A stretch of DNA of 64,000 bases from Straminergon stramineum (taxonomy: Eukaryota > Streptophyta > Bryopsida > Hypnales > Calliergonaceae). The stretch lies in assembly GCA_963920665.1 (NCBI GenBank), contig OY987263.1, positions 37,250,547 through 37,314,546 of the forward strand, written 5' to 3'. The translations under genes were made by a program, and so were the position numbers. The notes beneath the pieces were generated by a model, which saw nothing but the letters and a program-made list of their open reading frames with translations, was not told the origin of the DNA and ran no database searches. Below are positions 18,560 through 64,000 of the stretch, one piece after another. Every line of letters begins with the position of its first letter. The stretch's first letter is position 1.

Positions 18560-19490
18560 TTAACCTATAAATGACCAAGGTGTGTTTTTTGGCAATATAA
18601 CATTTTTTGGTAGGTACATGTGACTATACATTTCCATATCTTTGGCCCAAACTATAAGAGAAGGTATGGACGAATATCTTTCATGTGCACTAAATTTTAG
18701 GGCATTTGGAAATATGAGTCAAAAGTTATGGCCTAATATGTAGGTTGTTTCTCAACTCAGGCAGGCTGGGCAGATCTGAAAAAATCACTTTTCTCAAAAA
18801 TAAAAATTTGAAATTGGTTTTCTATATTTATATATACATAGAAAGCTTTGAATCATTACATTTTGATTCATGATGTAAAAGTTATGAGATGTTTTGGTTT
18901 GCGAGCAAGTCTGGAATCTCTATTCTAAAATAAACTTTGAAGTCCTTTAATTAACTCAATTTTCAATATTTAAAAAAATTAATAAAAACATTAGATATAG
19001 ATTGTTTATTACAACATTACAACCATTGGTATTGGAATTTTTCTATTCCATTAATAAATTGTTAAAAATTTGGAATTTTGAATCATTCTCTACATCTTTC
19101 TACTTACTATTTTTTTTCCTATATGTTGCACAATTCCAAATGATCTAAAAATTTTCAAGCATGTAGCCAACTTGCGTTGAAGAATGAATCTACAGAAGCA
19201 CCGCCATTTCCGACATTTTTTCATATAAATGTGACCTTGTGAAGTGCAACTACTCGTTTTTTCACAGGGCCCCCAAGAGTATTTTTGTCATTACGAATGC
19301 TAATATCTTGCAATCTACACGGTGGAAATTTCTGAAATTGTTTTCACATCTTTTTAATCTAGTGTACTACAAGATCCTACAGTTACATGCGTCCAAACAT
19401 GATATTTTTCAAAAATTTGGTACTTGTATTAGAAATGGCAATTTTTGAGTTTTTTTGGTGATAACATAGTCAAGGAACTTTAGGGGTTAA
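18560..19490 (+). mobile_element. TTAA-flanked non-autonomous element, copy 2 (931 bp; empty-site reference)
   Basis: It starts TTAACCTATAAATGACC and ends AACTTTAGGGGTTAA. It matches 48199-48776 and 62384-62738 across the whole length, and matches 7771-8702 in reverse. At 19131-19138 it contains GCACAATT uninterrupted, exactly where the large hAT element sits in the copy at 48.2 kb, so it shows the pre-insertion state. A reading frame of about 69 codons (19239-19448) recurs in other copies but looks like a by-product of copy similarity. Confidence 0.85.
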
Positions 19491-21129
19491 ACAAAAGTAT
19501 TCTTTTTTAAACTTGCCTAGCAAGATTGGTAGAATTTTGACTCCTCTTCAAATGATATTTTTGCATTAAAAGTAGTTTGCTCATTTTTGACATTTGCTTA
19601 TTATATCATGTTAGTTACATACAAGCCAAATTTAAAAAGTAAAAGAAGAATTTTGCAAAAGATGCATTTCCAAATTATCTGAACTACCTATATTTTTTGG
19701 GCAACAAAATTTTTGATTTAGGCATCTAATTTGATTTTTTTACATCACCACAAAAAATGTGAATCCCTCCATCTTGTGTCTAATTTTCAAAAACATCCAT
19801 TCAATGAATATATATATACACACACATTTAAATCTTTTAATTTTTTTACAAATTATGAAGAAGAAGACATAGAATATTTGTAACAAGTTTTCATGATTCT
19901 TAAACATTTTTAGAGTGGATTATAAAAATTGTAAATGTTTGACGTTACCACTTAGTCACAATCATTTCATTGAATAAAATTCATAATTTGTGAAAGTTTT
20001 GCCATATCAATGAAGAAATTATCATTTTGCTTACAAAAGAGTCTTGAAAATTTTGAATTTTTTCAAAAATATACATTTTCTAAGAAATTGATTGAATAAA
20101 GTATAAATTGAAAGTTGATTTAAAACTAAAGTAGATACATTTTTCACTTCTTGTAGCACATCTCCAAATTTCATTGAAAATTACTAAATTTTCACTATTA
20201 AGAAAATTTTGACAACTTTTGAAAGTCATTATATTATTAAAAAGGTTCTTTATAAAAAAATCTGATGAAATTCATTCATTTTCTATTATTAACTATATTT
20301 TTTGAAAAATTATAATTCACATTTGACTTACTACTGGTATAGTATTCTTATAAAGTTAAATAAGGCAAAAATGAGAATTAAAAAATATCTTTATTTTGTT
20401 TTGCATTTGTCATTAAGCAAACTCTCAATGCCAATCTCAAATTTTTCATTTGACAATATCATCTATATTTTCCCTCTATTTTCCCAGTATAATGATAGCC
20501 AACATCAAATCAAAAAATTTTGACAAAAAATTTGCCTAAATTTTAACCTTTAAACAAACTAAAAATCAATAAGACCACTTTCTTGTAATCATAATAAATC
20601 GTAATTACTCTTCTAAAATATCTATATCACTAATTCAAGTACAATATTAGTACATGGAGGAATATAATTACCTATGAGAGTCCATGGTAGAAAGAAAAAT
20701 GTAGGTGTAGAGCTTTCTACGAAAAATAAATTATGTCTTGAAAAGAATCCAAAAATAAAATCTTCATTCATGCAAGTTTTCCTTTTCTTCCCATCTTTAC
20801 ATGAACTAATTTAAAACCTTACACAAAAATCATGAAGCACCATGTGAGCATGCCACTCACATTCCTTAAGAAATGAACAAAAATTGATCTTCATCACACT
20901 TGGATGCACTTCATCCATTTTTAGTTACATGTTCACAATGACAACTCTTGAAGAATGAAGACATACAAATTCCATCGATGGACACCATAACTCACAAGGG
21001 TTTAATTAAATGAAATAGTAAACAAAATAGGTGTCTTCATCTTGCACTTGATTGCCACATAAGCAATCCGACTGCACCCACCAACCAATGAAGATTGATC
21101 AGATGTGGCACCACCCAACCTCAAAGTGG
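19491..21129. other. AT-rich DNA without genes
   Basis: The stretch is very AT-rich with only short open frames. No splice-supported coding region, RNA gene or clear element ends were recognised. Confidence 0.5.
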
Positions 21130-21600: not shown

Positions 21601-21959
21601 CGAATGTGTTGGATTCAGTACATCATTGTTCGTGTCTGTCTTGGAACTCATTTATCAGTTATCTTGAAAACTACTACAGCGAGAATTGTTTGTGCACAGA
21701 GTTTGAGTATTATAAGAGATTTTCAATTCGTAGAGTGTCCGTATTTCAATTCTTGAAAGGTGTTTGTTCAGAGCTTTGTATCGAGATTGTAGTTTGAATA
21801 AAGAAATCAATTTCATTACTCGATCTTGCATTGCTCGTGCTGTGTTTGTGAATTGAAGAGCGTGACGTTGAAAGTAACTGCGGTAGAAATTGTGCATAGT
21901 GTTCGAGCGAAAGAGGAGCCACAGTTCAGATTTGTGGTTAGAGCGTAGTTTCGTTACCA

Positions 21960-35339: not shown

Positions 35340-37207
35340 CTATGGACACCAATCTTCATCTCCTTTCACCTCAACTCCACTACTCTCTCTGTTAGCTCTC
35401 CGTTCAAAATCTTCATTGTCCGAATCATCTTCCGTATCATCTGAATCAAGTATCGTGGTCTTCTTCAAGCCTTTCTTTAAAGTAGGTTTACTCCCTTCCT
35501 TCGAATTTAATTTCTTTTTTATTTACTTTCATAGAACCATGACGGGCTTTTTGAATAGGAACTTTTCTTTTGCTTCTATTGAAGGAAGCATTGACATCCT
35601 CATCAAGAGGGGTCTTTTTCTTCACCGGAGAGATAGCAAAAGGCTGCATATCTTTTTTAATTTCCCCCTTACTGGATTCTCGAACCACTGCTTTCGATTT
35701 GGAGTCGGCCTGTCCATGAACGGTTATCTCCACTTTGACTTTCTTTTGAAGTAGCGGAGTGCTGGTTGTTGCTTTGATGGGTTCTCCTACCATTCGTTTT
35801 TCTAAACGACGAGCATGCAACGTTACCAATAGTGGTTGATCACTATCCATATCAGTGAGGCATGTATGTGATGGCACTACTTTTTGTACATTACCGCCTG
35901 TAGAAATTTCTTTCGAAATGTTCATTAGACGTTTTCCATACCCAAAGCTTTGAAAACCCTCTAATCTTGTGATAGTTGGCTTCAACGCTATTGGTGGAAG
36001 AGTGCTAGATCTCTGTATCTTAGAAATTGACTTCATTGGCTCCTTTCCTTTATCATTGTCCACAATACTTGATTTTGTGAATGCCATCTTGGTTGAAGCA
36101 CTCTTCTTCTATACCTCAATATTTGATTCACCTTGTCGCCACTGTTTTGGCCCACATCTTTTGGGGACGTCCAACTCACTGACCTTGTGTCCTTTTCTAT
36201 CATTTTCTTCGACATTCTCTTCCACCATATCTAGTGCCACAGATCGAGATTTCGAAATTTGAACATCTTCATTTGTTCTGGCATTGCCAAAAGCATCCCC
36301 ATTCATTTCCACCTCCTCAACAATAACAACTCCCTTTTTCGATAGAACAGTTTCGCTACTCATGTATGCAGTTCCGTCGCAATATGCTGCTATTGAAGGT
36401 AGATTCTCCTCTACCCCTACTTCATCCTCATCTTCTAAAAAATCATACAAATCGTTCGCATTGCCTTCAACATTAGCATAGCGGTCATTACGATTATGAT
36501 ACGTATCATCCACCAAATTGGGAATGTCTTCCATAGCGTCTTCATCTTCTGACGGTGCTGCACAACACAAGTCATCCTCGCCATTTACTACTTTAAAGGC
36601 CCTTTCCAAATCCTCGTCATCATCCTCATTATCATCTTCGATTATCGGCCTATCCGAATCCTCTGACTCCACTGTCTCCATGTTATCGTCGTACCATTTC
36701 TTTTCATCTTTTTCTTTCGATGCATTTAGGACTTTGGAATTAGTATACACATACACCAAATCCGCTGCTCTCTCTGGCTTCAATCTGTTTCGCGATTTGT
36801 TGTGAACAAAAAAAATAGCTGCTCCAATTCCGTTCACATGAAGATGATGACACCAGTTGGGCCAATATCCTCTTTGCTAATGGAGCTATAAACTTGCCAC
36901 AAGCACCTTCAAAATCCCACCAAGCATGTGTCGACAACATTTGTTCTCCCGGATTCAACATATTGTGGAATGGAGGTTCCTTATGTCGAAAAGCCACGAA
37001 TTCTCGAACCACTGCTGCGTACTCATCCGGTTTACATATTTTCTCCAAAACACGCTTACATGTTGACATTGCATTTGCATCATTGGCTAGTTCTTTGTCA
37101 TGTAGAAGGTATAGATTCAAGAGAGCTGCGGCAGATTGGAGATCGTTAGCTACCATTTCCCTTCGCACATGAAAGGACTGTATCAATGGAATTGCCTTGC
37201 TCTCTTC
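35340..37207 (-). pseudogene. hAT transposase, C-terminal part with long charged tail (broken)
   Basis: The reading runs from the N gap leftwards. AAALLNLYLLHDKE, WWDFEGACGKFIAPLAKRIL and SSSCERNWSSY are the hAT C-terminal dimerisation region, followed by RNRLKPERAADLVYVYTN. The frame shifts at an A8 run (36808-36815), meets an in-frame TAG (36109-36111) and shifts again at a T6 run (35515-35520) before ending at 35340. After the catalytic region comes about 450 codons of disordered sequence, first strongly acidic, then Lys/Ser-rich. The N-terminal BED finger and catalytic core would lie in or beyond the gap. Confidence 0.8.
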
Positions 37208-37407
37208 NNNNNNNNNNNNNNNNNNNNNNNNNNNNNNNNNNNNNNNNNNNNNNNNNNNNNNNNNNNNNNNNNNNNNNNNNNNNNNNNNNNNNNNNNNNNN
37301 NNNNNNNNNNNNNNNNNNNNNNNNNNNNNNNNNNNNNNNNNNNNNNNNNNNNNNNNNNNNNNNNNNNNNNNNNNNNNNNNNNNNNNNNNNNNNNNNNNNN
37401 NNNNNNN
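37208..37407. other. Assembly gap (200 N)
   Basis: There are exactly 200 unknown bases. Sequence composition changes across it, from the transposase gene to AT-rich repeat DNA, so the true distance is probably larger and should include the 5' part of hAT remnant 1. Confidence 0.99.
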
Positions 37408-37479
37408 CAACATATGCAAGAAATCTAAGGTAATTGCTCACAAAGTCAATTTTAGTCCAATGTTCATAAAATTTTTAGA

Positions 37480-48198: not shown

Positions 48199-48768
48199 TT
48201 AACCCCTAAAGGACCAAGGTGTGTTTTTTGGCAACATAACTTTTTTGGGTAGGTACGTGTGACTAGAGATTTCTATATTTTTGGCCCAAACTTTAATAGA
48301 AGGTGTGGACGAGGAATATCTTTCATGTGCACTAAATTTCAGGGCATTTGGAAATATGAGTCAAAAGTTATAGCCTAATATGTAGTTTGTTTCTCAACTC
48401 GGGCAGTCTGGGCAGATCTGAAAAAATCATTTTTTTCAAAAATAAAAATTTAAAATTGGTTTTCTAGATTTATATATGCATAGAAAGCTTTGAATCATTC
48501 CATTTTGATCAATGAGTCAAAAGTTATGAGATGTTTTAGTTTGCAGGCAAGTATGGATTCTCTACTCTAAAATAAACTTTGAAGACCGTTATTTAACTCA
48601 ATTTTCAATATTTTTTGAAAAAAATAAAATTATTAGATGTATATTGTTTATTACAACATTCCAACCATTGGGATTGGGATTTTTCAATTTCATTAGTAAA
48701 TTGTTAACAATTTAGTATTTTGAATCATTCTCTACATTTTTTTACTTACTATTTTTTTCCTATACGTT

Positions 48769-48789
48769 GCACAATTCATGGTTGTCATA
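48769..48789 (+). repeat. Left target duplication (GCACAATT) and left terminal inverted repeat of the giant hAT
   Basis: GCACAATT at 48769-48776 is followed by CATGGTTGTCATA. Inside this end lie CACCCGTCCGTCCG (48809-48822) and two CGCCCGTCCG copies (48825-48834, 48845-48854). Confidence 0.9.
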
Positions 48790-48989
48790 GTGGGCAGATG
48801 TCCGGTTCACCCGTCCGTCCGATTCGCCCGTCCGTTAGAGGTCTCGCCCGTCCGATACAATCAACACAAAGTTGACTTTATGAAAATAGAAAAATAAGCC
48901 ACGTGGATGCCACATGGATTTTGGAACATGCACGGCGCAGACGGGATCGTTAGGGCACGGACGGGATTTACATATGCTAAATTAATATG

Positions 48990-50270
48990 CTTTTACATAT
49001 TTCCATTTCATATTTCATATTCCATATTCCATATTCCAAGTCACTCCAACACTCCATTTTTTTTTTAATGTTACATCATATCATTGTAACACCCGAATCA
49101 TTTCCATATCCAAATCAATCCACCATTTCATATTTTTTGAGGGTATTAAATTACATCATTGTAACACCCAAACCACTTCCATCTCCAAATCACTCCACCG
49201 TTCCATAAATTTTTTGGGTGTTACATCATATCACACTAACACCCAAACCATTTCCATATTCAAAAGCACTACACCATTCATATTTCTTTTAATGTTAGAT
49301 TATATAACTCCTTAAAAATAATGAACAACTCTAAAATAAATTGGTATGCTTTTCAAAAGCTTGGGTCACTCCATCTCCCCTTTTGGACATTCATTTTTAA
49401 AGCACACTTCCATTCCAAGTCATTGCCCTTATTTTTTTGGTGGAATCATTCCCTTTCCTATTTTTTTGGCATCATTACCAAAAGTCTTGTATTTTAATTC
49501 AATGCCACTTATGTAGAGTGGAATGATTTTTTTTTCCTATTTTATTTTCCGTGATTAGCACAAATGTTCCATCTCTACCTAAGGCCATTTATTTATCATT
49601 GATCATTCCCATTCATTTCATTTTTTGCTTCATTAGCAAAACTCTTTCATCCCAAGTGAATTCCTTTTATTTTTTGTGGTATCCCAACTCTATCCGAATT
49701 TAATGATAATTTTTGGAGGGTGTTAGTTCAAATCATTTTGACACACTATTTTTTCACTTTTTGTGGACTTATCTCTCTCACAAAATTGTTCCATCCCAAC
49801 CCCAAGCCATTTTGTATTTGTTCCATCATTTCCTTTCCTATTTTTTTCCATTAATGAACAAAGCCCTTCCCATCCCAACTCTATGCCATTTGGGGGGGGG
49901 GTTGGATCATTCTCTCTCTTTTCGGGGGCTTCATTCCTAAAACTCTCCCATCCCAACTCATGGTTATTCTTTTCTAATTTGTTGAAACATTCCATTTTCT
50001 ATTTTGTTTTGGTTCATGAATTAGCAAGACAATTTTATTTGAACTCATAGTTTTGCTTTATTTGTTCAATCTTTCCCTTCCCTATTTTATTTTTGCTTAT
50101 TTCTAAAGTTCTTCCATCTAAACTCAAAGCCATTATTTTTATTTTTTTGTTCCATCATTCCCTTTCCTTTCCTTTTTTTCTTCATTCCTAAAATTCTTCC
50201 AATCTACTTCAATGTCATTCTTTTTTTTGTTGGATCATTTTTTTTAGGGGGCTTCATGAACTCCTAAAAC
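48990..50270 (+). repeat. Left minisatellite arm (T-rich strand)
   Basis: These are degenerate tandem units of roughly 70-80 bp. First come TTACATCAT...TAACACCC(A/G)AACCATTTCCAT-type units (49065-49290). Then come units built on CATTCCCTTTCCTATTTTTT, TTCATTCCTAAAACTCTTCC and CATCCCAACTC.ATGCCATT. The complement of the latter makes up the arm at 55250-56800, so the two arms are inverted relative to each other. Confidence 0.8.
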
Positions 50271-50563
50271 ATAGGCATAGTGAAAACATAAAGTGTATGT
50301 ATTTTTATACCAAACTATTGCATTCATTGTTTTTATTTAAGTTTTATCATCAATTCATAGAACTCATAAAAATGCAATGAGAAAGAACAATGAAATGGAA
50401 TATTAATATATTATGAGATTTTGAGTATAGAACATATCTGATTTTATATATATTTTGAGGTGTTTGGCAATTTCCAAGTAGGTACACATGGTCCTCTATG
50501 AGGATGATTTACCTTCTATGCCTAAACTATATGCTAAACTACACAAAGTGAAACAACTAAATA

Positions 50564-52133
50564 CTATGTACGATAACAACAAGCTGGCATAGTCCAACAG
50601 TGGGGGGCGTTTTTCAATGTGTTTAGAACATCTGGCACTGACGCCCTTTCACTCACATCCTCTTTTACGAGGCTTTCCAATTTGATCCTAAGGTTCTAAT
50701 ATTGCTCTGGATTCTTCGTTGTAAAGTATTTGGGGTTCCAGTCCTCTTTTCAAATTGCAGCTGCTATCCATCCTGCCGCATGTGCATCAGCAGCCATGGA
50801 GTACAAATGTGTTTTCTGCATGGCCTCAATTGAATTTGCTGAACCCTGCTCTTTGTATACATAAAACAATTCGGGGGCTGCAAACCTTCGCTTCTTCTTC
50901 TCCTTCACCAGAATCTCCATGCTGGGAAAGCCATACCTTGATGGCTCCTTCTCTACAACTCGGCTAGAAAGTCCCCAATCACATATCCCTATGTTCTTTC
51001 CAATCATCAAAATGGAGCAAAACATTGGATGGAGTTATGTCGTTGTGCATGTACTGTGCATCGTGGCATTTCCCCACAATGACAAGCAAGGAGAGTGCCA
51101 GGTTCACTCGGTTCTTTCGGTAAGTTGCAACCCATGCAAGCTCCTCTTTTGTCAACCCCGTACCTTGTTCACGCTCAATGTCATCCACATCCACTGATTC
51201 ACTCACTTTCGAATTGTATTTGGATAAGAAAGAAATTAGAGATCCTCCATTCCACCACAGCGTATAGCCTTCCATCGTTTTAGGGTGGAGGTATGCAATT
51301 CGAATGATGCCAGGATGTATCACTGGACACCCTCCTGCCTCATTGATGATTCCTTGGCGCTTCTCCTTTTCATTTGTGGTTTTCAAGCTCTTCCCAGCAA
51401 AAAATATCCAACTAGGAATGCTCTCAAGTTTTATAAGCATCACCTTCCTCACGGTCCCATATGAACCAACCGCACTCTGTTCCGGCATGGGGATGACTTT
51501 TACTGAACTTTCAAGCCACTTGAATGTTCCACTCACACAATGAGCCTTTATTGCATCTTCAATTGTCGCTTTCCATGGTGCTTGCTTTTTCTTACGCGAT
51601 GAAGAAAATTGTTGAGCAAAATTTTGAATGATTTTCAATTTTGCAACCAACTCTTTGTTCTGCATGTCCCAATCACTACCATCCTCTTTCTTACCCGTGT
51701 GGTAACACCAATTTGACACTATATTGGTTGTGAGGGCAACCACCTGTTTATCCAGCCAGTCTTGGTGCAACCAATAATCAGAGAAATTGTTGAATTTCTC
51801 AAATGCTTCAAACTTTGATTCCAGCTCCCTTCGCAAGTCCCTCGTCAGTTTGTGGTATCCTTCTTCGTTGTACACCACATACTCCCTGGTCAACATAGTT
51901 GTACCTCGACGAGTGTAGAACACCACAGCTATTGCTCTCCCTTCAACTATGAATTCATGTGGAGGCATTTGGGGATTTTGGGCTTTTTTGCGCTTCTTCT
52001 GGCTTGATGAGGAAGGATTTGATGAACCTGAGGACATCAATGTGTTCGTGGATGGAATTACCATCTCACCGACATCATCCAAATCTTTAAATATAGGACG
52101 TTTTTCCGTAGATCCACTTCCTTCCCCTGTCAT
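50564..52133 (-). pseudogene. Protein-kinase-like cargo gene of the giant hAT (one frameshift, two in-frame stops)
   Basis: The ATG is at 52133. The first 210 or so codons are a region I do not recognise (for example GRAIAVVFYTRRGTTMLTRE). A kinase domain follows: glycine loop VGSYGTVRKV, lysine in FFAGKSLK, glutamate in INEAGGCPVIHPGIIRI, catalytic loop MHNDITPSNVLL (HND instead of HRD, but the catalytic Asp and Asn are present), DWG instead of DFG in ICDWGLSS, APE as AAPELF, subdomain IX in ADAHAAGW, and a subdomain-XI-like LVKEDVSERASV. The frame shifts near 51000-51020, meets TGA at 50750-50752 and TAG at 50696-50698, and ends at 50564. Key residues would allow catalysis in an intact copy; the substrate is unknown. 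It is divergent from the RING-like gene and shares its promoter region. Confidence 0.75.
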
Positions 52134-52327
52134 AATGAAAAAAAATTGGTACGATGGGCCTCCGTATCTATCCAAAGGCACGAAAGTTAAAAAATTTCAA
52201 AAAAATCAGATCACATATGCGGGCCAAGCCCACCACCCACCAAACTCACTCACATAGGCCGCGGGGACGAACTAGTGTGTGAGGCATAGGGCGTGGACTT
52301 GGCAAAGAAATGAGGGCGGGGACTCGC

Positions 52328-52556
52328 TTTATATAGTCCCCCTGCTCACGTCCACGCCCTATCCCCTACCGTTCTCGCCCCTGTACATGGCGTTTCTGCC
52401 CCAACCGCGATGGCGTTCCCACCCCCACTATGGCATCCGCGCCCCCCACAACGGCGTTCCCGCCCCCCACGATGGCATCCGCGCCCCCACCACGGCGTTC
52501 CCGCCCCCCACGATGGCGTCCGCGCCCTGGCGTCCCCCACCTCCAACTATATAAAG
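52328..52556. promoter_or_regulatory. Bidirectional promoter: mirrored CTATATAAAG boxes around a GC-rich repeat array
   Basis: CTATATAAAG is on the minus strand at 52328-52336 (about 195 bp before the kinase-like ATG) and on the plus strand at 52547-52556 (about 130 bp before the RING-like ATG). Between them, at about 52385-52525, are 8-9 tandem units of about 18-21 bp alternating GATGGCGTTCCCGCCCCC and GATGGCATCCGCGCCCCC. The same CCGCGCCC core is repeated before the transposase gene. Confidence 0.75.
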
Positions 52557-52684
52557 CCGTTTCCGCCCCATTTGTGCCCGCCCTGCATACTCTCAGCCTT
52601 CCACCTCTCTGTTGAGCTGGTTGTGAGCGTTGTGTGGGGTCTACTTGATTGCCACATTGGAGGTTCTCGAATTTTTCTACAAAA

Positions 52685-54982
52685 ATGGCTATACCACCAA
52701 GAATGACCAAGGAGGAACGAGACAAGACCCGACTGCGAGCAGGAACCAAACATCGTAAGCGACTACATGTTCTACGTAACCCTGCCAAGCTTGCATTCAA
52801 GGGGTGGGAGGACGTGCTTGACCCATGGACTTATGATGACTGCACCAATTACATCGAGTGGTGCCACATTGACAAGGTCTTCCCGGAAGAGCGACATAAC
52901 TTTCATAGACGCTTCCACAAGGCAAATTTGAAACATTGCCTTGACAATGAGTTCACGAACCGATGCATTGAGGTGTTCCAAGTGTTGTACGATGTTCCGA
53001 ACGTCACACGCAATGAAGTGCATCTTTTCATTGCACGAGGGGTCCATGCGGAGGTGAAGTTGAATAAGAGAGTGGATTGGTCAACTTTGAAGACAATGGG
53101 GGAAAATGTCAAAATTCCTCCCCCAGAGAATGGATTCATTCCAAGGGGGGTAAAAAGATACCTAGAAGGTGGTCTATCGAAAAAAACTACGCAAGTTCAT
53201 GCACCACCAAACTATGACACTTCGGACTCATCTACGGACACCGACTCCAATGGATCTCATGTGCCAATTGTAGTCAACCATAGAACACAACAACAACGTG
53301 CTAAAAAGAGGAGGGCTGCGCGTGCAACTAATGAGGTTTTACCAGAAAATGTTGTGGAGGAACAAGTGCCACCTACTAACGAACCAGTAGTAGGAATTGT
53401 CGATGTTCCAGTTGCTGCAAACCGAATTCAGAGTTTCTTGATCGAAGTGAATGACAAGAATGAAGAATTGCGTTCTTTGTATGATGATGTTAACAAATTG
53501 AGGGAAGAAATCAAAGAGAAGGACAACATCATCAATCAACAACAACTTGAGATGGAGGTACTTCGACACGCTCTTGAGGCAGCAACATTGGCCAATCCTG
53601 GTCAGGATCCACGAGGGGAAGCGCAAGGGCCTTCAAATAATTCCCAAATTCCATTGGAACATGCAGAAGTTGGTGCAACAATGGGTACTCAAGAAGATTC
53701 ATTGTCCTTTGGAGAATTACCCACGAATGTAGTTGCAGCAATACCAGTTGACCAAAGCACCCAACTAACGGACGCGCTTGCAAACAATTTGAGATTGAAA
53801 AATCAATTGCATGCATTGATGGAGCAGTATTACCAATGGAAGATGGCATGCATCTTTAGTGTTGACAGAACTAGGCAAATGGTAGAAGAATTCAAAAAAA
53901 TTGACAACAATTACGGCGCACACAATCAAGAGAGGGTTTTTGGTTTGACATCGTGGGCCCTGGTGGATGATCTTTTCAACATGGATGAAATGGCGACCAT
54001 CAACATTGGTGGTGGACCAACAACCATCGATTGGTCCAAACATGCTTGGGATTTCAAGAATGCAGTTGGCTCTGCCATCGACCATCAAGGCAATCCATTA
54101 CTACTGTGGCCAAATCCTTCAACCTTCGTGCATGATGGAACTACATGTCCCATTTGTCTTAATCCATTTGGCCCGGAAGGTGGAATGCACCTAGGCACGT
54201 GCGAACATTTGTACTACCCATTTTGCCTAATTAGCTTGATGATTATTCGCCGACGTTGTTCATTGTGCAAGGCTCCTTTCTATGAGCGCTTGTATGAGTT
54301 GTTTGGATTAGTTCCCTACATGCCACCGCATTGGGAATTCAATGCTGAAAATGCCCCTAATCATTCTCAAAAGTGGGGAACAGACTTGGTATGGAGCTGG
54401 AAATTGAACATCCATTCATTGGACAAACAAAACCTTCGTACCGAATGGGGTTGGGAAAGAGATCCGGCTCAAATTGTGGAGGTGTGCCACCACTTGGTTC
54501 CACTAAAGGACAACTTCATCCAAGGAAGACGGAATTTCTTCTTCAAGTGCTTCAATGGGCATTGGAACGAAGCTGGACAATACTTCCAATTTGGACCTCA
54601 TCCTCGTGGATGGTTATGGGGCGTTGATGGAGTTCGCATTACTAACGACAATGGGATGCGGATGGGGGAAGACATTGGCATGCCAGACCCTGTTGAACTT
54701 GCACAACTATCGGAGTCAGAGTGGCGAGAAACCTTTCGAAATGAAGGGATGGACTATTTGTTGGAACAGTATAGCCCGGGAACTCTCCAATGTCTTTAGA
54801 GCCTCAAACAATCACAAATATTGAGGGCTATATTAGAGGAAGACGGACCAGCAAGGAGAACTCGATCCGCAGTTCGTAGACTTCGTTTGGGCTCAGATGA
54901 AGACCTTCCAGTCCACGCCGGGACACAGGACAATGAGGCTGGACCAAGCGGTAGTGCAAGTAGTCCAATGAACATTGACTAG
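52685..54982 (+). CDS. Coiled-coil and RING-like cargo protein of the giant hAT (704 aa to the first stop)
   Basis: ATG at 52685; the frame is open to TAG at 54797-54799. Coding character continues in the same frame beyond the TAG (LRAILEEDGPARRTRSAVRR...) to a second stop at 54980-54982, so the TAG is probably a mutation. An N-terminal basic and helical region of about 170 residues is unknown to me (KGWEDVLDPWTYDDCTNYIE). Then come a Ser/Asp linker, a basic KKRRAARAT patch and a coiled coil at about 245-305 (VNKLREEIKEKDNIINQQQL). A RING-like cluster lies at about 488-525: CPIC, TCEHLYYPFC, RRRCSLCKAPF. The spacing CxH-x5-C lacks one expected ligand pair, so E3 ligase activity is not certain. 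A Trp-rich C-terminal domain follows. No transposase or retrotransposon domain is present. Confidence 0.7.
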
Positions 54983-55249
54983 GTATAGTTTAGAGTGTTT
55001 TAGCTAGTGAGCTTAGGTTTTCTTAGAAGACTTACTTTCCTAGCATTATATAGGCTTATATACTTTCGTACTTTATATTACACTATGCATATGAAATATA
55101 TATGATTGTGTTTTGAATGGTTTTGCCCGAATTGACTTCGTTTATTTTTTGCACATACTCATTTGAAACGACTTGTCGACTTCATACATATTAAAATTAT
55201 TTAAACCATGAAATGAAATGTCATTGAAATGGAGTAAAATTCATTCCCA

Positions 55250-56800
55250 ATTTCCAATCAATGATCAAAATTAGGGAAGGACCACAAATGTCATTTAATA
55301 GGAAAAAAACGCTTTTGAAATGTCGTTAATGCAAAGGAAATAAGGAATAATGGAACCCAAAAAAAAATGGGATGGTAATAGGTACATATTTAATTGCAAA
55401 ATAATGAAATAGGTAAAGGAATGATGGAGAAAAGCAAAAAATAGGGAAAGAATGATATACCAAAAAATAAATGGCATTGAGTTGGGATAGAATGATCTTG
55501 CAAATCAAGCCCCAAAAAATTAGAATGGGTTCAGGGAATACAAAAATTAAATGCACTTGGGTTGACATGGAGCAATTTGCTAATCAAGCACAAAAAAATT
55601 AGGAAGGGAATGATCAATGAAAAAAAAATGGCATTGAGTTGGAAAAAATTTAGGAAGAGAATAATAATGCCATTTAGTTCTTGTATAACTTGGGATGAAA
55701 CAATTTTGCTAATCAAGCAAAAAAAATAAGAAAGGGAATGAATCCTACCCAAAAAATGGCATGGAAGTGTATTGTTATCCGAAGCACCAAAAATTGGGAA
55801 AGGTAAATGGGAATCATGAAATTGGGATGGAAATAGGTACATCCGTACATACCCAATAAAATGGTTACCAAAAAATGACCATAAAAGAAAATTGAAAACT
55901 TTAAATTAGGGAAGGAGGTAAAATGTCTTTGAGTTAGAATAGGATTTAATAAATAAAAAAGTTAGTGAAAAAAATGAAATGTCATTGAATTGGATTAGGA
56001 TTCAATGGGGATAAAATTTAGGTAAGGAAATGAAATGTCATTGAGTTGAAATAGGATTCAAATATTCAATGATAAAAAAAAAATTAGGTGAAGAAATGTA
56101 ATGTCATTGAATTGGAATAGGATTTAATGATAAAAACATTTAGGGAATGAAATTAAATGTCATTGAATTGGAGTAGGATTCATTTCCAATCAATGACGAA
56201 AACTAGGGGAGGGAAAGAAATGTCAATCCATTGGAATGTAAGTGCATTTTAAATGTTAATAAAAGCAAACAAATGTGAAAGAGATATCAAACAAATCTTA
56301 TTTTTTATTACCTATTTTTTCATATGAGAAATGGGAAGTGAATGGAAAGACTCCAATTTGGTACCATAAAAAACTTTTATTATTGAGTTGGGATGGAAGA
56401 ATTTTGCTAATGAGTAAAAAAAATAGGAAAGGGAATGATGGAACAAAAAAAAGCTTGCTTAAAGTGGGAATAAAAGAGTTTTAGGAATAAATGAAGGAAA
56501 AAAAATGGAAAGCAAAAAAAATAGGAAAGGAAATGAGTTGGATGAATAAATATTGGCATGGAGTTCAAATTAAAGGGTTTCAGGAATTAATGAAGAAAAA
56601 AATGGTGGAACAAAAAACAGAGGGCAAGTAGTTGAAATGGAAGTGTTTAAAGAGTTCATGAAGCCAAAAAGAAAATTGAATGATTTACAAAAAAATTAAT
56701 GGCATTGAGGTGGGATGGAAGAGTTTTAGGAATGAAGCCCCCCAAGATAGGAAAGGGAATGATGGAATTAAAAATTCAAGTGACGTATTGAAGGCCTAGA
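55250..56800 (-). repeat. Right minisatellite arm (A-rich strand), inverted to the left arm
   Basis: These are degenerate units of about 65-80 bp such as ATGGCATTGAGTTGGGATGG, followed by AATGATTTTGCTAATCAAGC and AAAAAATAGGAAAGGGAATG. They are the reverse complement of the units at 49.4-50.27 kb. A subgroup with AAATGTCATTGAATTGGA repeats lies at about 55920-56240. It is non-coding. Confidence 0.8.
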
Positions 56801-57229
56801 ATTTTTTTTTAACTCCCTACTATTTCTTTCATTTTAAACAAAATGCGATTTTACCCTTTTATCTAGTACACTACATTTCCAAAACATTTCCTAAATATTT
56901 CCTCAAAGTGTCCTAAACACTTTAGAATTTAGAGTCTTTTTTTTACACCCTAAACTATTTGTTGGTTCAATGTAGTTTGAAGTGTTACAAGAAGTAAGGA
57001 AAAACATTTTCCACCACAACGAAGGGGACATGCTGACATGCTCTTCCATGAAGTTTCTTCCAAATCTTAGTCAGTGGAGCTCTTTATTTGGCATCTTGCT
57101 TTCATTGTCTTGTCGGAATCCAAAACAAGTTGTTTAGGCTATAATTAATGGTTCCCCCGCTCCAAAAAAAGGAAGGATTGAAGGATGTCAAGCCCAAGCA
57201 CATTTCAAAGTCCTGCCTCCTGTGCTAAA

Positions 57230-57907
57230 CGAGCACGTCCACGCCTTGGAGTTCGCGCCCTGACTTCAAGTCCACGCCCTGGAATCCACGCCCTGACTTC
57301 AAGTCCACACTATGGAGTTTGTGATTCAGCTGCGCTCTCTCAAGTTCTTTCGCCTCTGTGAATTGTCCGCCCTGGAGTCCGTGCCCTAACACAACCCATT
57401 CAACGAAAACATTTTTGAGAGAAAGTATTCTTGTCTCTCCACGAATATGAGGACTCTAAAGCAAGGTGTGACAGCATTTAATGTTTCCCTCTTTCCATGA
57501 AAAGGGGGGACACCATCTTCCAAGACCATTAAATAGGAAGAAGGAGGGATCCCATGTCCAATGCATCCCCATGTGTGCACCCACATTTCTATAGTGGAGT
57601 TTCGCCCTGGAGTCCGCACCCTGGAGTCCGTGCCCTATTATGGAGTCCACGCCCTGAAGTCCACACCCTGTGATGACGTCCACGCCTTAGAGTCCGCGCC
57701 CTAACTTCAAGTCCCCGCCCTGGAATTCGCGCCCTACCTTCCTGTTCGCGCCCTGATGCCAGGGATTCAAGTGTGCGTTGTGAACATCCTCCAAAAATTC
57801 TCAGAGTGTACGTCCGCGCCCTACACTTTGGAAATGAAGAAGTCCGCGCCCTGCTGCCACGCACATCGGTGGAGTCCACGCCCCTGCATTCCCTAAGTAT
57901 ATAAAGA
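57230..57907 (+). promoter_or_regulatory. Repeat-array promoter of the hAT transposase gene
   Basis: More than 15 copies of a (G/T)CC(A/G)CGCCCTGGAGTCC-like motif cluster at 57235-57370 and 57600-57890, just before GTATATAAAG (57898-57907), about 260 bp from the transposase ATG. The GTCCGCGCCCTG core returns in the same orientation at the right end of the element (about 62060-62215). It may serve for transcription, transposase binding, or both; that is inference. Confidence 0.65.
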
Positions 57908-58165
57908 AAAGGAAGACCCAGCATTCCCCACATTTGTCACCTGGCCTCTATCTCTTGGACTTCAATTCATTTTGAGCTCTTTGTGAGTCTACTTAGGTGG
58001 CAGATGGCCCTAGTTTGCTGCTGAGGTGATGTCAAAATCAGTTCAAGCAGTGGATTAGCGCTAACTGCTGTTACTGATACTTTGTTTGGTATATCTATGA
58101 TCTTTTTAACTTCAATACGAAGGAGGAGGAAGACATTTGAAATTATTTGTGAACAGTTGAACGCA

Positions 58166-61100
58166 ATGGCAAGTCAAAGGAAGCAGACCAAAGAATGGGA
58201 ACCATGGCTGAACTTTACAGAGAATGGGATGAAGGTGACTTGTGTTTTCTGTGCTGGGACCTTCAGTTACAAACGTGAGCGTGCTTTTGCACATTTCAGA
58301 TATGGCTCAAAATCGGAGAGGTCAATTTGTCGAAGTATGCCTCGTCATGTGCGACATAGATTTTCCAATTGTACAGGTTTTGTCCCGCTACGAATGGATG
58401 TCGAGGACATGTATGAAGGAGAACCAATTCAAAGTGCACCATCTAGAGCAACTACACGTGCAAGTTCAAGTGAAGCCACTGAAAATGAGGTGACGGGTGG
58501 GATCAATGGTGGGAGAGCGGAAGAAGGGGCAAACGTTTTAGAAGGAAATGATATTCTACAATCGTCAAATAGTCTTGCTGGATTGAATTCTACAAGATTA
58601 GGATCACTACGTCAGCAACGCATGGCGGATGCATTCAACATTGCAAAGAGGAAGGAGTTGGATGAGAAGTGGGCAAGTTTTTTCTATGAAGCAAATGTGC
58701 CATTTAATGTGGCAAGGCATCCAGCCTTCATTGAGGCTGTGAAGGCAACCTCACAGGCAAGGTTTGAATATAGTCCACCTTCTTACCATCAGTTCAGGAC
58801 TAATTTAATTGAACCAAGGAGGTTGCAAATTGAGAAGCAGATTCAAGAAAAGGTTGGATTTGTTGTCAAGCACTATGGGGTGTCAATATGCACCGATGGT
58901 TGGGATGATGTCAATCGGAGGCCCCTCATGAATGTGATGATGTCATGCCCCACAGGTGATGTATTTTTGGGGTCAATTGATACTACCTTGCAAAAAAAAA
59001 ACCATGCACTACATAGCGGACCAAATGAAAGTGTACATTGAGAAGGTGGATCCTAGATATGTGACACAAGTGTGCACAGATAATGCAGCAAACATGCTTG
59101 GGGCATTGCAAGACATCACTCGAACATATCCGCACATTTTTGCGCAAGGCTGCATGGCACATGCACTGGATCTCATGTTGGAAGATTGGGCCAAAATCCA
59201 GGAATTTTCGGATTTAATTGGCAGGGCAAAAAGATTGTGCCAATACATTCGAAACCATCATACAACCATGTCGGTTTTCCGTGAGTTGAGTCCGAATCTG
59301 CAACTCGTAGTGCCTCGCGAAACTCGCTTCGCTTGTAATTTCCTCATGTTGCAGCGACTGGTGAAACTCAAAGGAGTCTTGGAGCGGTTAAATAACCACC
59401 TGCGTGTTCTAAATTACTTTGATACCCTATGAAACGAACAAAATGGACCGCAGGCAGCTACCACTTCACGTAATGTCAGAAGAACCATTCAAGATGTGGC
59501 TTTCTGGCAACGATGTGTGAATTACGTGTACATGACTGAAGACGTATTGAAGGCTTTGCGTGTGTTTGATGGACGAGAACCAACCATGGGTCGGGCATGG
59601 CTCGTAATGCACAATTTGCGAGGGCACGTGTATTCTTTAAGAGAACCACCTTTCAGCTTACGTGATGACATAGCAATCATTTTGGAAGCATCTTTCAATG
59701 AAAGATGGAACATGGTTTTTGAAGATACACACTACGCTGCGGCCCTTTTGAATCCATATCTCTTGGATAATGTGGCGCTCAAGGTGGATGGAACTGCCCT
59801 ACGTGCATTATATAGAGTCATCCGCAAGATGGCAAATTCAGTGGGTGTGAATTTTGATGATGTGTTGGCGGAATTAACAGAATTTGAGGAGGGTAGTGGA
59901 CCGTACAGTCCAGCTATGACATTCAACATCCGTGTGACACAAATGCTTCCCCACCAATGGTGGCACAGGGTTGGGGATCGCGCTCTTTCAAAAATTGCCG
60001 TGCTTCTTTTATCCCTCATGTGTTCTGCCAGCTCTTGTGAAAGGAATTGGAGTATGTATTCCTTTGTTTACAATAAGGTCCGAAATCGATTAGCCCCCGA
60101 AAAGGCACAGTCATTGGTATATATTTATACCAATAGCCGTGTACTTCAGCAGCGACCAGAAGCTAATCTAGTTCGTTGGTATGATGCAAATATGTACTCG
60201 GAGGATTCCGATCCAAATGCCCTTGGTCCACTCCCGACGAATGAACGCAATCGGGAATTCGACGCAATGCAAGCAGAGGAAGAAGCAGAGGTTGATGGAG
60301 AAGCTTATGGAGCACCTTAAGAGTATCCGGCAAACCCAGATCTTTGGAAGAGAGGAGCTGATCACCTCAAGGAAGCAAGGAACTACTATGGAGATGTTGA
60401 TGATGGAGAGGAGGAACTCCTTGATGGTCGTTGGGGTCCTTGGGGGCCACCCATTCCACCCAATCCACATCGCAACCCTTCACCTCCACTTCCTCAAAAT
60501 GAAGGGATTGTTGAAGTCCCTGCTTTGTCGTCTTCTTTAGAGACCGACAATCCAAATGACGATAACGTCGATGATGGTATTTCCCATAACAACAACGACG
60601 ATGATGACAACCTCCCTCCAAGAAATGGCGGTGGAAATGAAGATGGTGACGTAAACAGGGGGAGGAATGCAAATCCAAACCGTGGAGGATCTTCTCACAA
60701 TCGAGATGGCAATACAAGGCCTATAGGAGTGGGGCCACCAACTCGAAACATTAGAGCTATTCAAGGCCATCATGACATAAATGTTAGAAATGCAAGAGTG
60801 GCACGCCCTATTGCAAGAAACCAACCGGCTGGTAATGTGAGAAGGCCTTTTGATCCAGAGCATGTGGACCCTAATGATGTTTTTGCATTTGTAGAACCAC
60901 TAGAAGACCTTGCCCGTGTACCTGCTCTAGTTGAGGCCATCCTACTATTTCTGACCAGGGTATACAAACACCACATTCCATAGACCCATCTTCAGTAACA
61001 AATTCCAATGCCATCCGAAGACCTTCTTCAGCAGGGTTAGGCTCTCTGGGGAATGTTGATTTGACTCTGCAAAGCGTTTCACGTGGTACTATTGGTGGTA

Positions 61101-61654
61101 GACCACCTATGGCCCCTCGGCCCCCTGTTTGTCATGAACTAGGTCAATATCAACAAGGCCGTGGAAGGGCTGGAGGCCGTGGAGGAAGTAGAGGCCGTGG
61201 ACGAAGAGAAGGTCAACATATTAGAGAAGCATCATCATCAAGGCCTACTAATCATCTACTCCTTGGAATTGAGGCAAGAGATCCAAATAGGGTGATAGAA
61301 CCGTTCCTAAGTACATACGTACTAGGACCTAGTGGGTCAACCCCGGCATTTGTTGTTTCAACAATTCCAGGTGGGCCCACTATAAATTCTAATGCAGAAG
61401 ACCCCAACGCACAACGACATAAGAGGTTCAAGCGCAAACGTAGTCAAGGTCAAACTACAGTAGAACTTTGAAATGAAAACTCAGAAGTTGAGGGACATTG
61501 GACTACAGACAGTGGTGAAGTAGAAGATGAATATGACAGCAACGAAGATGCGAATAATGAGGCACCAGAGGATGATGATGTTGTTGTTCGAGATGCTAAT
61601 GCAGCGGATCCAAGTGCCCAAGAAGTTCGTAGGTCGAGTCGTTTGAATAATTGA
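58166..61654 (+). pseudogene. hAT transposase with BED finger and very long disordered C-terminal tail (decayed)
   Basis: ATG at 58166 (MASQRKQTKEWEPW). The BED-type finger VTCVFCAGTFSYKRERAFAHF is at about residues 25-50. The catalytic region has ICTDGWDDVNRRPLMNVM and QVCTDNAANMLGA. The dimerisation region has AALLNPYLLDN, HQWWHRVGDRALSKIAVLLL and SASSCERNWSMYSF. Lesions: an A10 run (58992-59001) shifts the frame, TGA at 59430-59432, TAA at 60318-60320, a frameshift between about 60960 and 61060, and TGA at 61469-61471. Coding character continues through all of them to 61654. After the transposase domain comes about 450 codons of Pro/Asn/Asp-rich sequence, an RGG-box-like GRGRAGGRGGSRGRGRR and an acidic end (RRSSRLNN). 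Confidence 0.85.
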
Positions 61655-62054
61655 GGTTATTGAGTTGCATCAACGATAGATCTCAGGTCTTTAAGAGTTG
61701 AAGAGAATTGTAGCAATTAGAAGAAAGATGGATGAGAAGCCAAAGGAATGTCTTAGATAACCTATGAGAAGGTGAGCGTATTTTGGAAGTATAGATTCAT
61801 TGTATTGTTATTGTACTTTGCAATGCATGAATTTTATAAACAGTTTTGGTTATCACAAACATTACAGCCTACTAATATTTCTTTTCTTTATTTTTGTGTT
61901 TGACGGGCATGTTGGAAACATTGGTGAGTGCAATTATGTAAAATATATTGCAGTTACTAGTTCTTTTTAATGCACTGGGGTCTCCCATTTGTTCAAAAAA
62001 TAAATTTATATATATATACATATATTGGATAACACCTAAGTAAAATTCACCATT

Positions 62055-62220
62055 TCCCGTCCGCGCCCTCATGTTGACGCTGAAGTCCACTCCCTGCCTG
62101 AACGAGTCCTCGCCCTGATGCTGACGCTAAAGTCCGCGCCCTGCCTGAAGGAGTCCGCGCCCTGCCGCTCACGCTAAAGTCCGCGCCGTGACGGTGGCAC
62201 GATGACATCCGCGCCCTACA
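62055..62220. repeat. Right-end array of GTCCGCGCCCTG motifs
   Basis: Six or seven degenerate copies (GTCCGCGCCCT, GTCCTCGCCCTG, ATCCGCGCCCT) alternate with TGACGCTAAA-type spacers about 150-300 bp from the right terminus. They have the same orientation and core as the array upstream of the transposase gene. Confidence 0.75.
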
Positions 62221-62362
62221 TCTTGCTGTCCGAGGTGACGTGTCATTCAAAAAAATTCCACAACTTTGAAAAATTGAAGCTGTCCAATGGGTCCAGACCG
62301 TCCATCCGTCCGGTCCGGTTCGCCTGAGCGTCTGGGACATCCGATGACCTTGACCCGTCCGA

Positions 62363-62383
62363 TATGACAACCCTGGCACAATT
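62363..62383 (-). repeat. Right terminal inverted repeat and target duplication of the giant hAT
   Basis: TATGACAACCCTG (62363-62375) is followed by GCACAATT (62376-62383). Inside are CCGTCCATCCGTCCGG (around 62298-62313) and CCCGTCCG (around 62354), mirroring the subterminal content of the left end. Confidence 0.9.
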
Positions 62384-62738
62384 CCAAATGATCTGAAAAT
62401 TTTCAAGCATGTAGCCAACTTGCCTTGAAGAATAGATCCAAAGAAGCACCACCATTTTGGACATTTTTTCATACAAATGTGACCTTGTGAAGTGCAGCTG
62501 CCCGTTTTTTCACAGGGCTCAAAAAATGATTTTTGTCACTTCAAATGCTAATATCTTGCAATCTACACGGTGGAATTTTCTGAAATTTTTTCCACACCTT
62601 CTCAATATAGTGTACTACAAGATCCTACGGTTACATTTTTCCAAAAACTATATTTTTCAAAAATTTGGTACTTGTATTAGAAATGGCAGTTTTTGAGGGT
62701 TTTTGGTGATAACGTAGTCAAGGAACTTTAGGGGTTAA

Positions 62739-63733
62739 CAATCATGGTGTATCTCACTAAAGTAGTGCTTGAATGCTAGTAGAGTGTACCAAACACCTTG
62801 GAACTTTGTCAAAAATTACGCACCTTAATCTCTTGAGCTCTCAATACAATCAATTTATGTTCAAAATAAGGAAGTTTGAAACTTTGGTTTCACTAACTTG
62901 TGCATGATTGAGTTTTTAGGGTTTAGGGTCATGTATAAGTGATGCTAAGGTAGGAGGCTTGAAAATGGCTCATCTAAGGGTTGATCGACCTTGTTTATGT
63001 AGTTCCTTCAATGAGAATATTTCAAGCTCATTTTTCAAACAAAGAGAAATAAATGTAGAATGTAACACAAGTGGTTTCAAATTTTTTGAAGCATTATTGA
63101 ATTAGTTATGAATTTTCAAACAAGTTTTGTCATAGGCCTTGATTTACGACCCTAGGTCTTCCATACATTGTTCACTAGGAACTTGTAAAGTGAAATGGGG
63201 AAAGCAAGGACAATGATTGGCTCTTGCAAGAAATTATAATTTTTTTCTTGATCCATTCAATGATTGTAGGGGTCAATTTTAGGACCATTTCATGTCCATT
63301 TTAGAACTTATTATAGGGACAATTTTAAGTGCCCAAACTGATTTCAAGCCTCCTACCTTACTTGGCTCAAGAACATAGATGAACAAGAATTCTTTTGAAA
63401 TCCCATCACAAGTGGTGATTGTTCCCTTCTTAGCTAGCCAGAAAATTATATGATTAGTACGTACCTTGCTTATGTACCACTTGTGCTTGTAGCTTAGTGG
63501 GCTGCAAAGTGCATGAGCTATTCAGTTGGTAGTTTGATGTGTACTAATCAATAATCTAGTATCGAATATATATATGTGGTTTGAAGTCAATGTATTGTAC
63601 ATGGGACTATATATGCATCAACATCTAAGGTTCTGTGCTCTTAAAGCGACCATTTAAGAGCTGATTGCCTTTATTGGAGAAGCTAAATTTTCAGTAAATT
63701 TTCTTAGGAAATAAAATGGAATTGGCATCTAAC
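62739..63733. other. AT-rich intergenic DNA
   Basis: No gene, RNA or clear element end is seen between the split TTAA element and the one that starts at 63734. Confidence 0.45.
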
Positions 63734-64000
63734 TTAACCCCTAAAGTTCTACAACTATGTTTTCACTGAAAATGCTTCAAAACTGCCATTTTTAGTACAA
63801 GTGCCAAATTTTTGAAATTTTTTTTTTGACACATTTAACCATAGGATGTTGTAGTATACTGACTTGAGAGCATGTGGTAAGAATTTCAGAAATTTCCACT
63901 GCATGGATTGCAAGATATAGGCATTTAAATTCACTGAAATCATTTTTCGGGCCCTGCAAAAAACAGGGCAGCTGCACTTCACAAGCTCACTTTTCTATGA
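63734..64000 (-). mobile_element. TTAA-flanked non-autonomous element, copy 4 (cut by the window edge)
   Basis: It starts TTAACCCCTAAAGTTC and matches the right end of the 18560 and 48199 copies in reverse (for example ACAAGTGCCAAATTTTTGAA and TTGCAAGATAT). About 670 bp would remain outside the window if it is full length. Confidence 0.75.

Follow-up and report, generated by a model that had tools for sequence, protein, structure and literature searches.

A giant hAT transposon with accessory kinase and RING-like genes, and its relatives, in the moss Straminergon stramineum

We analyzed a 64,000-nucleotide stretch of the genome of Straminergon stramineum (assembly GCA_963920665.1, contig OY987263.1, positions 37,250,547 to 37,314,546; hereafter the window), which contains a hAT transposon of 13,599 bp at 48777-62375 that carries a protein kinase gene and a gene for a RING-like protein in addition to its transposase gene. 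The same gene set, made up of the kinase, one to three RING-family genes and the transposase, was found in related elements, and GC-rich motif arrays that differ between lineages stand before the genes. We consider it probable (roughly 0.78) that the window element belongs, as a decayed copy, to an old family of giant hAT elements with several genes, in which the kinase and the RING-like protein are accessory factors for the element's own control. These accessory proteins would act on the transposase or on host control.

The element is flanked by an exact 8-bp target site duplication (GCACAATT) at 48769-48776 and 62376-62383. Its 13-bp terminal inverted repeats (TIRs) differ at a single base (left, CATGGTTGTCATA; right end reverse-complemented, CAGGGTTGTCATA), the right one reading TATGACAACCCTG on the forward strand at 62363-62375. 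The motif CCGTCCG was found five times in the left 200 bp and twice in the right 200 bp (averages of 0.03 and 0.04 in shuffled sequence, respectively) and nine times in the remaining 50.4 kb of the window. A sequence-only reading of the window had proposed a 13.6-kb hAT element from its 8-bp duplication, its nearly matching 13-bp TIRs and the presence of CCGTCCG at both ends, and all of these features were confirmed by our sequence checks. End pairs with an 8-bp duplication are, however, not rare in the window: we detected 11 pairs of 13-bp inverted repeats (at most two mismatches) with an exact 8-bp duplication, located 1-30 kb apart. Among the ten pairs other than that of the element, three connect inverted copies of a host repeat near 8 and 19 kb, one of which likewise bears CA...TG ends, and one connects another inverted repeat pair. 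The proof of the borders must therefore come from an empty site and from other copies of the element.

Indeed, the borders are fixed because a copy of the host repeat exists without the insertion. Positions 48199-48777 align to 18560-19136 and positions 62376-62741 to 19128-19494, both with ~89% identity, and the two halves join at GCACAATT. The uncut copy near 18560-19490 that had been put forward as proof of the borders is thus real and represents a paralogous empty site (18560-19494); a second uninterrupted copy is found in inverted orientation at 7759-8486. The host repeat is an AT-rich dispersed family of ~0.9 kb (7759-8486, 18560-19500, 48199-48777 together with 62376-62741, and 63733-64000), with copies 74-89% identical to one another, and the element sits inside one of them. 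The element inserted after the copies of the host repeat had split. The nested insertion had been called dated, which holds for this relative age and for nothing beyond it.

All three genes of the window element are damaged: the kinase frame is broken, the RING-like frame has an early stop and the transposase presents several frame breaks. The window copy is therefore defective. The features of the window are the following.

48769..48776, no strand: left target site duplication GCACAATT
48777..62375, plus strand: whole hAT element, from its ends, the host-repeat comparison and other copies
48777..48789, plus strand: left TIR CATGGTTGTCATA
48790..48976, no strand: left subterminal CCGTCCG repeats, from the motif count
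49023..50230, no strand: degenerate AT-rich repeat arrays, with 49404-50230 inverted relative to 55445-56779; absent from the compared 15-kb copy
50565..52133, minus strand: protein kinase gene, frame broken, longest open stretch 50979-52196; approximate limits from the alignment to open-frame copies
52134..52684, no strand: stretch separating the divergently oriented kinase and RING genes, with GTCCRCGCC at 52290 (minus), 52350 (plus) and 52518 (plus) and GC-rich tandem repeats
52685..54982, plus strand: gene of a RING-like, coiled-coil protein, early stop at 54797-54799; related copies are ~60 codons longer and the end is approximate
55192..56779, no strand: degenerate AT-rich repeat array, partly inverted relative to 49404-50230
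57237..57882, plus strand: GTCCRCGCC array (8 motifs) upstream of the transposase
58166..61655, plus strand: hAT transposase gene with DUF659, Dimer_Tnp_hAT and a long tail of low complexity; the frame is broken at several points, and the limits were set from the sequence and from open-frame copies
62059..62187, plus strand: four GTCCRCGCC motifs of the right subterminal region, with tandem repeats of 47 bp
62363..62375, plus strand: right TIR TATGACAACCCTG
62376..62383, no strand: right target site duplication GCACAATT
18560..19494, plus strand: uninterrupted host-repeat copy, the paralogous empty site

We searched the same genome (326,016,511 bases in 59 contigs) for further members of the family; the family counts given here are lower bounds. 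A 295-amino-acid piece of the transposase yielded at least 133 matches, at least 75 of them with 83% identity or more, and the kinase yielded at least 107. Searches with the left and right ends gave at least 40 loci each, and the search with the RING protein led to 63 scored loci at 90% identity or more, the best of 1,690 first-look candidates. The three genes were found to be closely linked. Within 35 kb upstream of the 75 close hAT matches listed, the kinase was found on the opposite strand in 73 cases and the RING gene on the same strand in 60 (against 63 RING loci listed), while the RING gene alone was found for one match and neither gene for another. A divergent kinase lies within 6 kb of 62 of the 63 listed RING loci and a same-strand hAT within 35 kb of 60. 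The 40 left ends listed enclose the kinase, the RING gene and the hAT in 32 cases, the kinase and the hAT in five and none of them in three. A hAT was found within 6 kb of 26 of the 40 right ends listed, and two more have the kinase and the RING gene without a near hAT. The expectation that the same three genes would lie inside other copies is thus borne out by 32 of the listed left ends and by inspected copies with 8-bp duplications. The opposite outcome, in which the termini would enclose a transposase only, fails at the left ends, where a hAT without a kinase was found in none of the 40. Two pairs of loci present identical scores and stop counts, namely G000:C10:1930819-1932930 with C10:7572265-7574376, and G000:C11:17321635-17322768 with 17356910-17358043, which are inverted and 35 kb apart; these pairs on C10 and C11 look like segmental or assembly duplications.

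We then opened ten copies beyond the window copy, selected for visible ends and genes. All 11 clade-1 copies, including that of the window, share common ends, with lengths of 13,452-15,706 bp, and all 11 present 8-bp duplications (nine exact and two with one mismatch). All 11 copies have T at position 3 of the left end; at position 3 of the right end, nine have G, two have A and none has T. The single TIR mismatch is therefore a feature of the family: the one-base difference noted in the sequence-only reading is present but is no peculiarity of the window copy. The copies fall into two length groups, A (~13.5 kb; the window copy and a copy on C3 at 9.18 Mb) and B (15.1-15.7 kb; nine copies), the window element thus belonging to subfamily A of clade 1. 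Aligned to the window, one B copy is missing ~1.1 kb of the AT-rich left array and carries ~3 kb of extra non-coding sequence ahead of the transposase; in the A copy that was aligned, the array is retained. No frame longer than 140 amino acids was found in the additional 3 kb of the three 15-kb copies examined for an extra gene. Among the three B copies with frames listed, the kinase frame spans 552 codons (stop to stop) in all three, the RING frame 777 in two and the transposase frame 1,182 or 1,221 in two.

In one copy of 7.4 kb (G000:C5:24951500-24959300), the kinase and RING genes have been lost together with the interval separating them and with most of the hAT gene. Both ends remain, as does the non-coding stretch from the RING gene to the hAT gene, and a perfect 8-bp duplication, CCTATGGC, flanks the copy. 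This copy is best read as having been mobilized in trans. The parts retained by this Ds-like derivative, its ends and the non-coding sequence between RING and hAT, hint at an action in cis.

The gene set extends to more divergent hAT elements, of which we opened one copy of the C8 lineage and two copies of clade 2. The C8 copy encodes a kinase (minus strand) and a hAT transposase (plus strand) with 54% and 64% protein identity to clade 1, respectively; no ends were recognized for this copy, which seems truncated. A diverged kinase with the same geometry was found at seven of the 16 listed hAT loci of 51-72% identity, at a distance of 26 kb for one of them. Clade 2, whose transposase piece is 47-50% identical (at least 42 loci), was defined by its ends. 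With a query spanning the right end, 38 other element-side loci stop at query positions 773-800, including 36 at 773-788, and one further locus matches the flank only, from query position 779, as an empty site would. With a query spanning the left end, the match starts at position 177 in 38 of 39 other loci and at 172 in one. The lengths are 17.9-21.8 kb for the six end pairs listed (the 22.8 kb printed for the query copy contains query overhang). Exact 8-bp duplications were identified for two of four tip pairs, with ends CATGGTTGTTC and CAGGGTTGTTC, and the tips likewise read CATGG and CAGGG where readable. Both opened clade-2 copies present a full-length RING match (36-38% identity), a kinase (28%) and a transposase (40% over ~780 amino acids), as well as two extra genes in which the N-terminal domain of the RING-like protein recurs. 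The kinase and one RING relative are again divergent, with the full RING gene at the left end: the gene set is kept in clade 2 while the gene order has changed. On G000:C10 at ~12.644 Mb, the left tip of a clade-2 copy is joined to clade-1 right-end sequence, and this junction looks as if the ends of two elements had recombined.

In the window copy, DUF659 and Dimer_Tnp_hAT exceed the Pfam cut-offs within 58025-60320, and the kinase and RING domains appear below cut-off only. An open-frame copy scores 30.8 bits for PF05699 (cut-off 21.4) and 119.6 bits for PF04937 (cut-off 34.7). The transposases in the open frames seen are ~1,100-1,220 amino acids long, with ~500 amino acids beyond the dimerization domain in the open-frame copy scanned. 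The kinase of an open-frame copy passes its own threshold (PF00069, 34.1 bits against 31.7). K248, E265 and N370 are invariant and D365 is conserved in at least 90% of a 22-row alignment that includes some fragments; we take these four to be active-site residues, and their conservation suggests that the kinase is active. The structural model of the kinase combines a helical N-terminal region (59-200) with a kinase fold (pLDDT 83.3, pTM 0.78), and solved kinases were matched in a fold search with this model (best E 2.8e-8). In the RING-like protein, a conserved N-terminal domain is accompanied by coiled coils and by a ligand pattern like that of RING fingers (C-x2-C, C-x-[HC]-x2-H-x2-C, C-x2-C) that is largely kept, the second His being Tyr in the window copy.

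Relatives of these proteins were found in other samples (18 RING, 24 kinase and 40 transposase proteins), including a Ceratodon purpureus protein among the transposases; the closest ones (95-97%) may come from the same species. None was found in viral contigs. In contigs of bacterial and archaeal genomes, a relative turned up once, a RING gene with 39-40% identity on CADCWO010000051.1, which is assigned to a cyanobacterial metagenome-assembled genome (MAG). A kinase relative (P0020) and a transposase relative (P0076) are filed under a Bacilli MAG. The relatives in the cyanobacterial and Bacilli MAGs look like eukaryotic contamination of prokaryote genomes.

We estimated the ratio of non-synonymous to synonymous substitution rates (dN/dS) by the Nei-Gojobori method, with one clade-1 copy as reference. 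Compared with the C8 lineage, this copy gives dN/dS values of 0.168 (kinase), 0.196 (RING gene) and 0.151 (transposase core). The RING value is that of the piece with computable dS; silent sites are saturated in the other RING pieces, in the transposase tail and in every clade-2 comparison. These low ratios suggest that the kinase and RING genes are constrained like the transposase in lineages that are still moving. Ratios against the reference are higher among close copies (0.36-1.50 for the eight other B copies and 0.32-0.49 for the two A copies), as expected if decay after insertion is mixed with older constraint. Because they recur across lineages, with dN/dS of 0.15-0.20 between clade 1 and C8, these two genes look like part of a set kept over a long time rather than passengers.

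The motif arrays distinguish the lineages. The window element holds 16 copies of GTCCRCGCC and the remaining 50.4 kb of the window a single one. The motif is found 16 and 27 times in two clade-1 copies; it is absent from the two clade-2 copies and from C8. Conversely, RGTCGCCC is found 52 and 58 times in the two clade-2 copies, never in the clade-1 copies or C8, and never in 13.8 kb of flank of one clade-2 copy. The C8 lineage presents its own motif, GTCCCCGCC, with nine occurrences on a single strand. The arrays precede genes and also stand at the right end where this end was found. Across 13 element copies and the foreign contig CADCWO010000051.1, at least one sense motif lies within 1 kb upstream of 39 of 43 gene starts, with sums of 172 sense and 50 antisense motifs; motifs of the kinase/RING interval were counted for both genes, and the gene starts of clade 2, C8 and the contig were set by hand. 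On the contig, seven GTCCGCGCC motifs are located 243-369 bases before the RING start codon, which ties the RING gene and the motif together outside the genome of the window.

Several observations weigh against an old family of multi-gene elements with accessory proteins. Two of the 40 right ends listed have a hAT without a listed kinase or RING gene, and 12 have none of the three genes listed nearby; these 12 could be further derivatives of the family, either non-autonomous or reduced to solo ends. The RING piece at the expected position in the C8 copy (48% identity, plus strand) covers residues 13-316 only, and a longer match (49%) stands inverted. Among the matches listed, no kinase was found upstream of nine of the 16 hATs of 51-72% identity or of any of the 42 hATs of 47-50% identity; two of these 42 loci were opened, and both contain the kinase and RING kinds. 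One of the nine, a hAT on C7 (63% identity), has neither gene in 9.9 kb starting 1.6 kb upstream. The other two of the four clade-2 tip pairs gave no matching duplication, and the identities of hAT and kinase across the seven diverged loci are not significantly correlated (rho 0.61, p 0.14). The RING assignment itself falls short of the zf-RING_2 cut-off in an open-frame copy (23.0 bits against 27.3), the model of this protein is poor (mean pLDDT 55.5) and the RING gene of CADCWO010000051.1 has no kinase in the 1.9 kb upstream.

If the kinase and the RING-like protein are accessory factors, intact copies would supply transposase in trans, and this transposase would cut and paste both full and internally deleted copies, as in Ac/Ds. 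The two other proteins would regulate or protect the autonomous element rather than travel as passengers, most likely through modification of the transposase or removal of a host repressor or silencing factor. The transposase, or the N-terminal domain of the RING-like protein, might be directed to the motif arrays, as VANC is to the tandem motifs of VANDAL elements. A more specific version, which we put forward tentatively and with more doubt than belief, combines self-recognition with anti-silencing: an element protein would read the arrays, and the kinase and a RING ubiquitin ligase would disable a host silencing or repair factor there. That motif and protein change together as lineages split, which is part of this version, is just as conjectural. 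If true, this would constitute a second, independent VANC-like invention, in hAT elements and with signaling enzymes.

The two genes could also be host-derived cargo that benefits the plant, carried by the element as in fungal Starships and kept by host selection. The low between-lineage dN/dS of both genes and the use of such gene kinds in host signaling are consistent with this explanation, as are 18 of the 107 listed kinase matches that have no listed hAT within 35 kb. However, 15 of these lone kinases are at most 71% identical and all 18 have at least one internal stop. Each opened lineage that has any such genes carries the same gene families instead of varying cargo, and the ratios among close copies, ~1 and above, look like decay after insertion. 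Host cargo thus appears unlikely. The claim of an unusual giant form with extra genes is itself supported, but the word cargo is less fitting than accessory genes. It is very unlikely that an ordinary hAT took up pieces of host genes once and was then amplified, in the manner of Pack-type elements. DNA transposons are known to capture genes and the copy number here is high, but the elements carry whole genes with long open frames and low between-lineage dN/dS. We found the same gene families in the opened lineages and not host fragments differing between copies. The presence of the set where transposases are 40-64% identical, and hence its deep conservation, largely contradicts such a capture.

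Finally, the kinase/RING block might be a separate element nested in the hAT, as the long AT-rich inverted repeats on its flanks (49404-50230 against 55445-56779) could suggest. We searched around the block for inverted repeats of 12-14 bp accompanied by an exact duplication (2-11 bp). Among the pairs listed, 49446 is joined with 56438 or 56762 by perfect repeats of 12 bp and a duplication of 5 bp, but these candidates sit within tandem arrays, and the 8-11 bp classes comprise only poorly matching repeats. A nested unrelated element was rejected, since the pairs listed consist only of repeat-array pairs or poor repeats. Moreover, the left array is absent from the compared 15-kb copy, which retains both genes; the genes are found in three lineages and rearranged in clade 2; and the motif arrays of the block recur at the transposase promoter and at the right end. 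The sequence-only reading had named a kinase/RING segment with its own ends and duplication as evidence against itself. Such a segment is not supported, with the listed pairs in the window confined to arrays and the genes present in lineages whose transposases are ~64% and 40% identical, and we regard nesting as very unlikely.

Two other features of the window were noted. A single open frame at 21957-22667 (plus strand) encodes a chlorophyll a/b-binding domain (PF00504), looks ELIP-like by eye and points to a photosynthetic host. A segment at 36109-37474 (minus strand) adjoining a run of N looks by eye like the C-terminal part of a second hAT transposase remnant, for one piece of which a Pfam scan gave no match.

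The elements resemble the hAT superfamily (Ac/Ds, Tam3) in their 8-bp duplication, short CA...TG TIRs, DUF659/Dimer_Tnp_hAT transposase, subterminal repeats and deleted derivative. hAT elements are usually a few kb long with one gene. In contrast, those described here reach 13.5-21.8 kb with two to four further conserved genes and a tail of ~500 amino acids past the dimerization domain. VANC, from the VANDAL Mutator-like elements of Arabidopsis, is the closest working model in print that we encountered. To our knowledge, VANDAL elements have no kinase or RING gene; their transposase is of the Mutator type (MURA), whereas that of our elements is a hAT transposase, which sets them outside the Mutator type. 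VANC is an anti-silencing protein that targets short tandem motifs in the same orientation, which differ between related families (PMC5735166). The likeness lies in an accessory protein encoded by the element and in short tandem motifs in non-coding parts that change between lineages; VANC binding and demethylation have been demonstrated (PMC5735166), and a comparable action in the hAT family is putative.

Giant transposons of the KDZ, EnSpm and Sola types in algae and fungi are 15-30 kb long, with accessory genes of which one lies opposite the transposase strand, and their hosts spend long phases as haploids (PMC12477816). They differ in belonging to other transposase superfamilies, and most of their accessory genes are described in that source as having no known function; one of its tables lists four hAT families, amounting to 0.05% of that genome (PMC12477816). 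ToxhAT/ToxTA of fungal wheat pathogens, a 14-kb cargo transposon once called hAT-like, has a 2-bp TA duplication and 74-bp TIRs and was reclassified as likely Tc1/Mariner-type, so that it is not a giant hAT (PMC12506042). Starships are likewise large eukaryotic transposons carrying extra genes, but they have a tyrosine recombinase captain (DUF3435) and no hAT transposase according to the same source (PMC12506042). The element proteins that we scanned gave no Pfam match to this captain. In a survey of plant hATs, no moss hAT is reported from Repbase or from its homology search (PMC6027215). We recognized no hAT element with kinase and RING genes in the open-licence literature, mostly at the level of titles and the beginnings of abstracts, which does not prove that none has been published.

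These results indicate that the known giant transposons of algae and fungi are joined by old hAT lineages, 13-22 kb in size, in which a kinase and RING-like gene set is conserved. Kinase and RING-like genes co-evolving with a hAT element are unusual for the superfamily. Should the accessory genes affect silencing or the transposase, the family would offer a natural system of exchangeable lineages, each with its protein and its array, for the study of escape from host control. It would also supply kinases and RING-like proteins whose genes may be miscounted as host genes in plant annotations.

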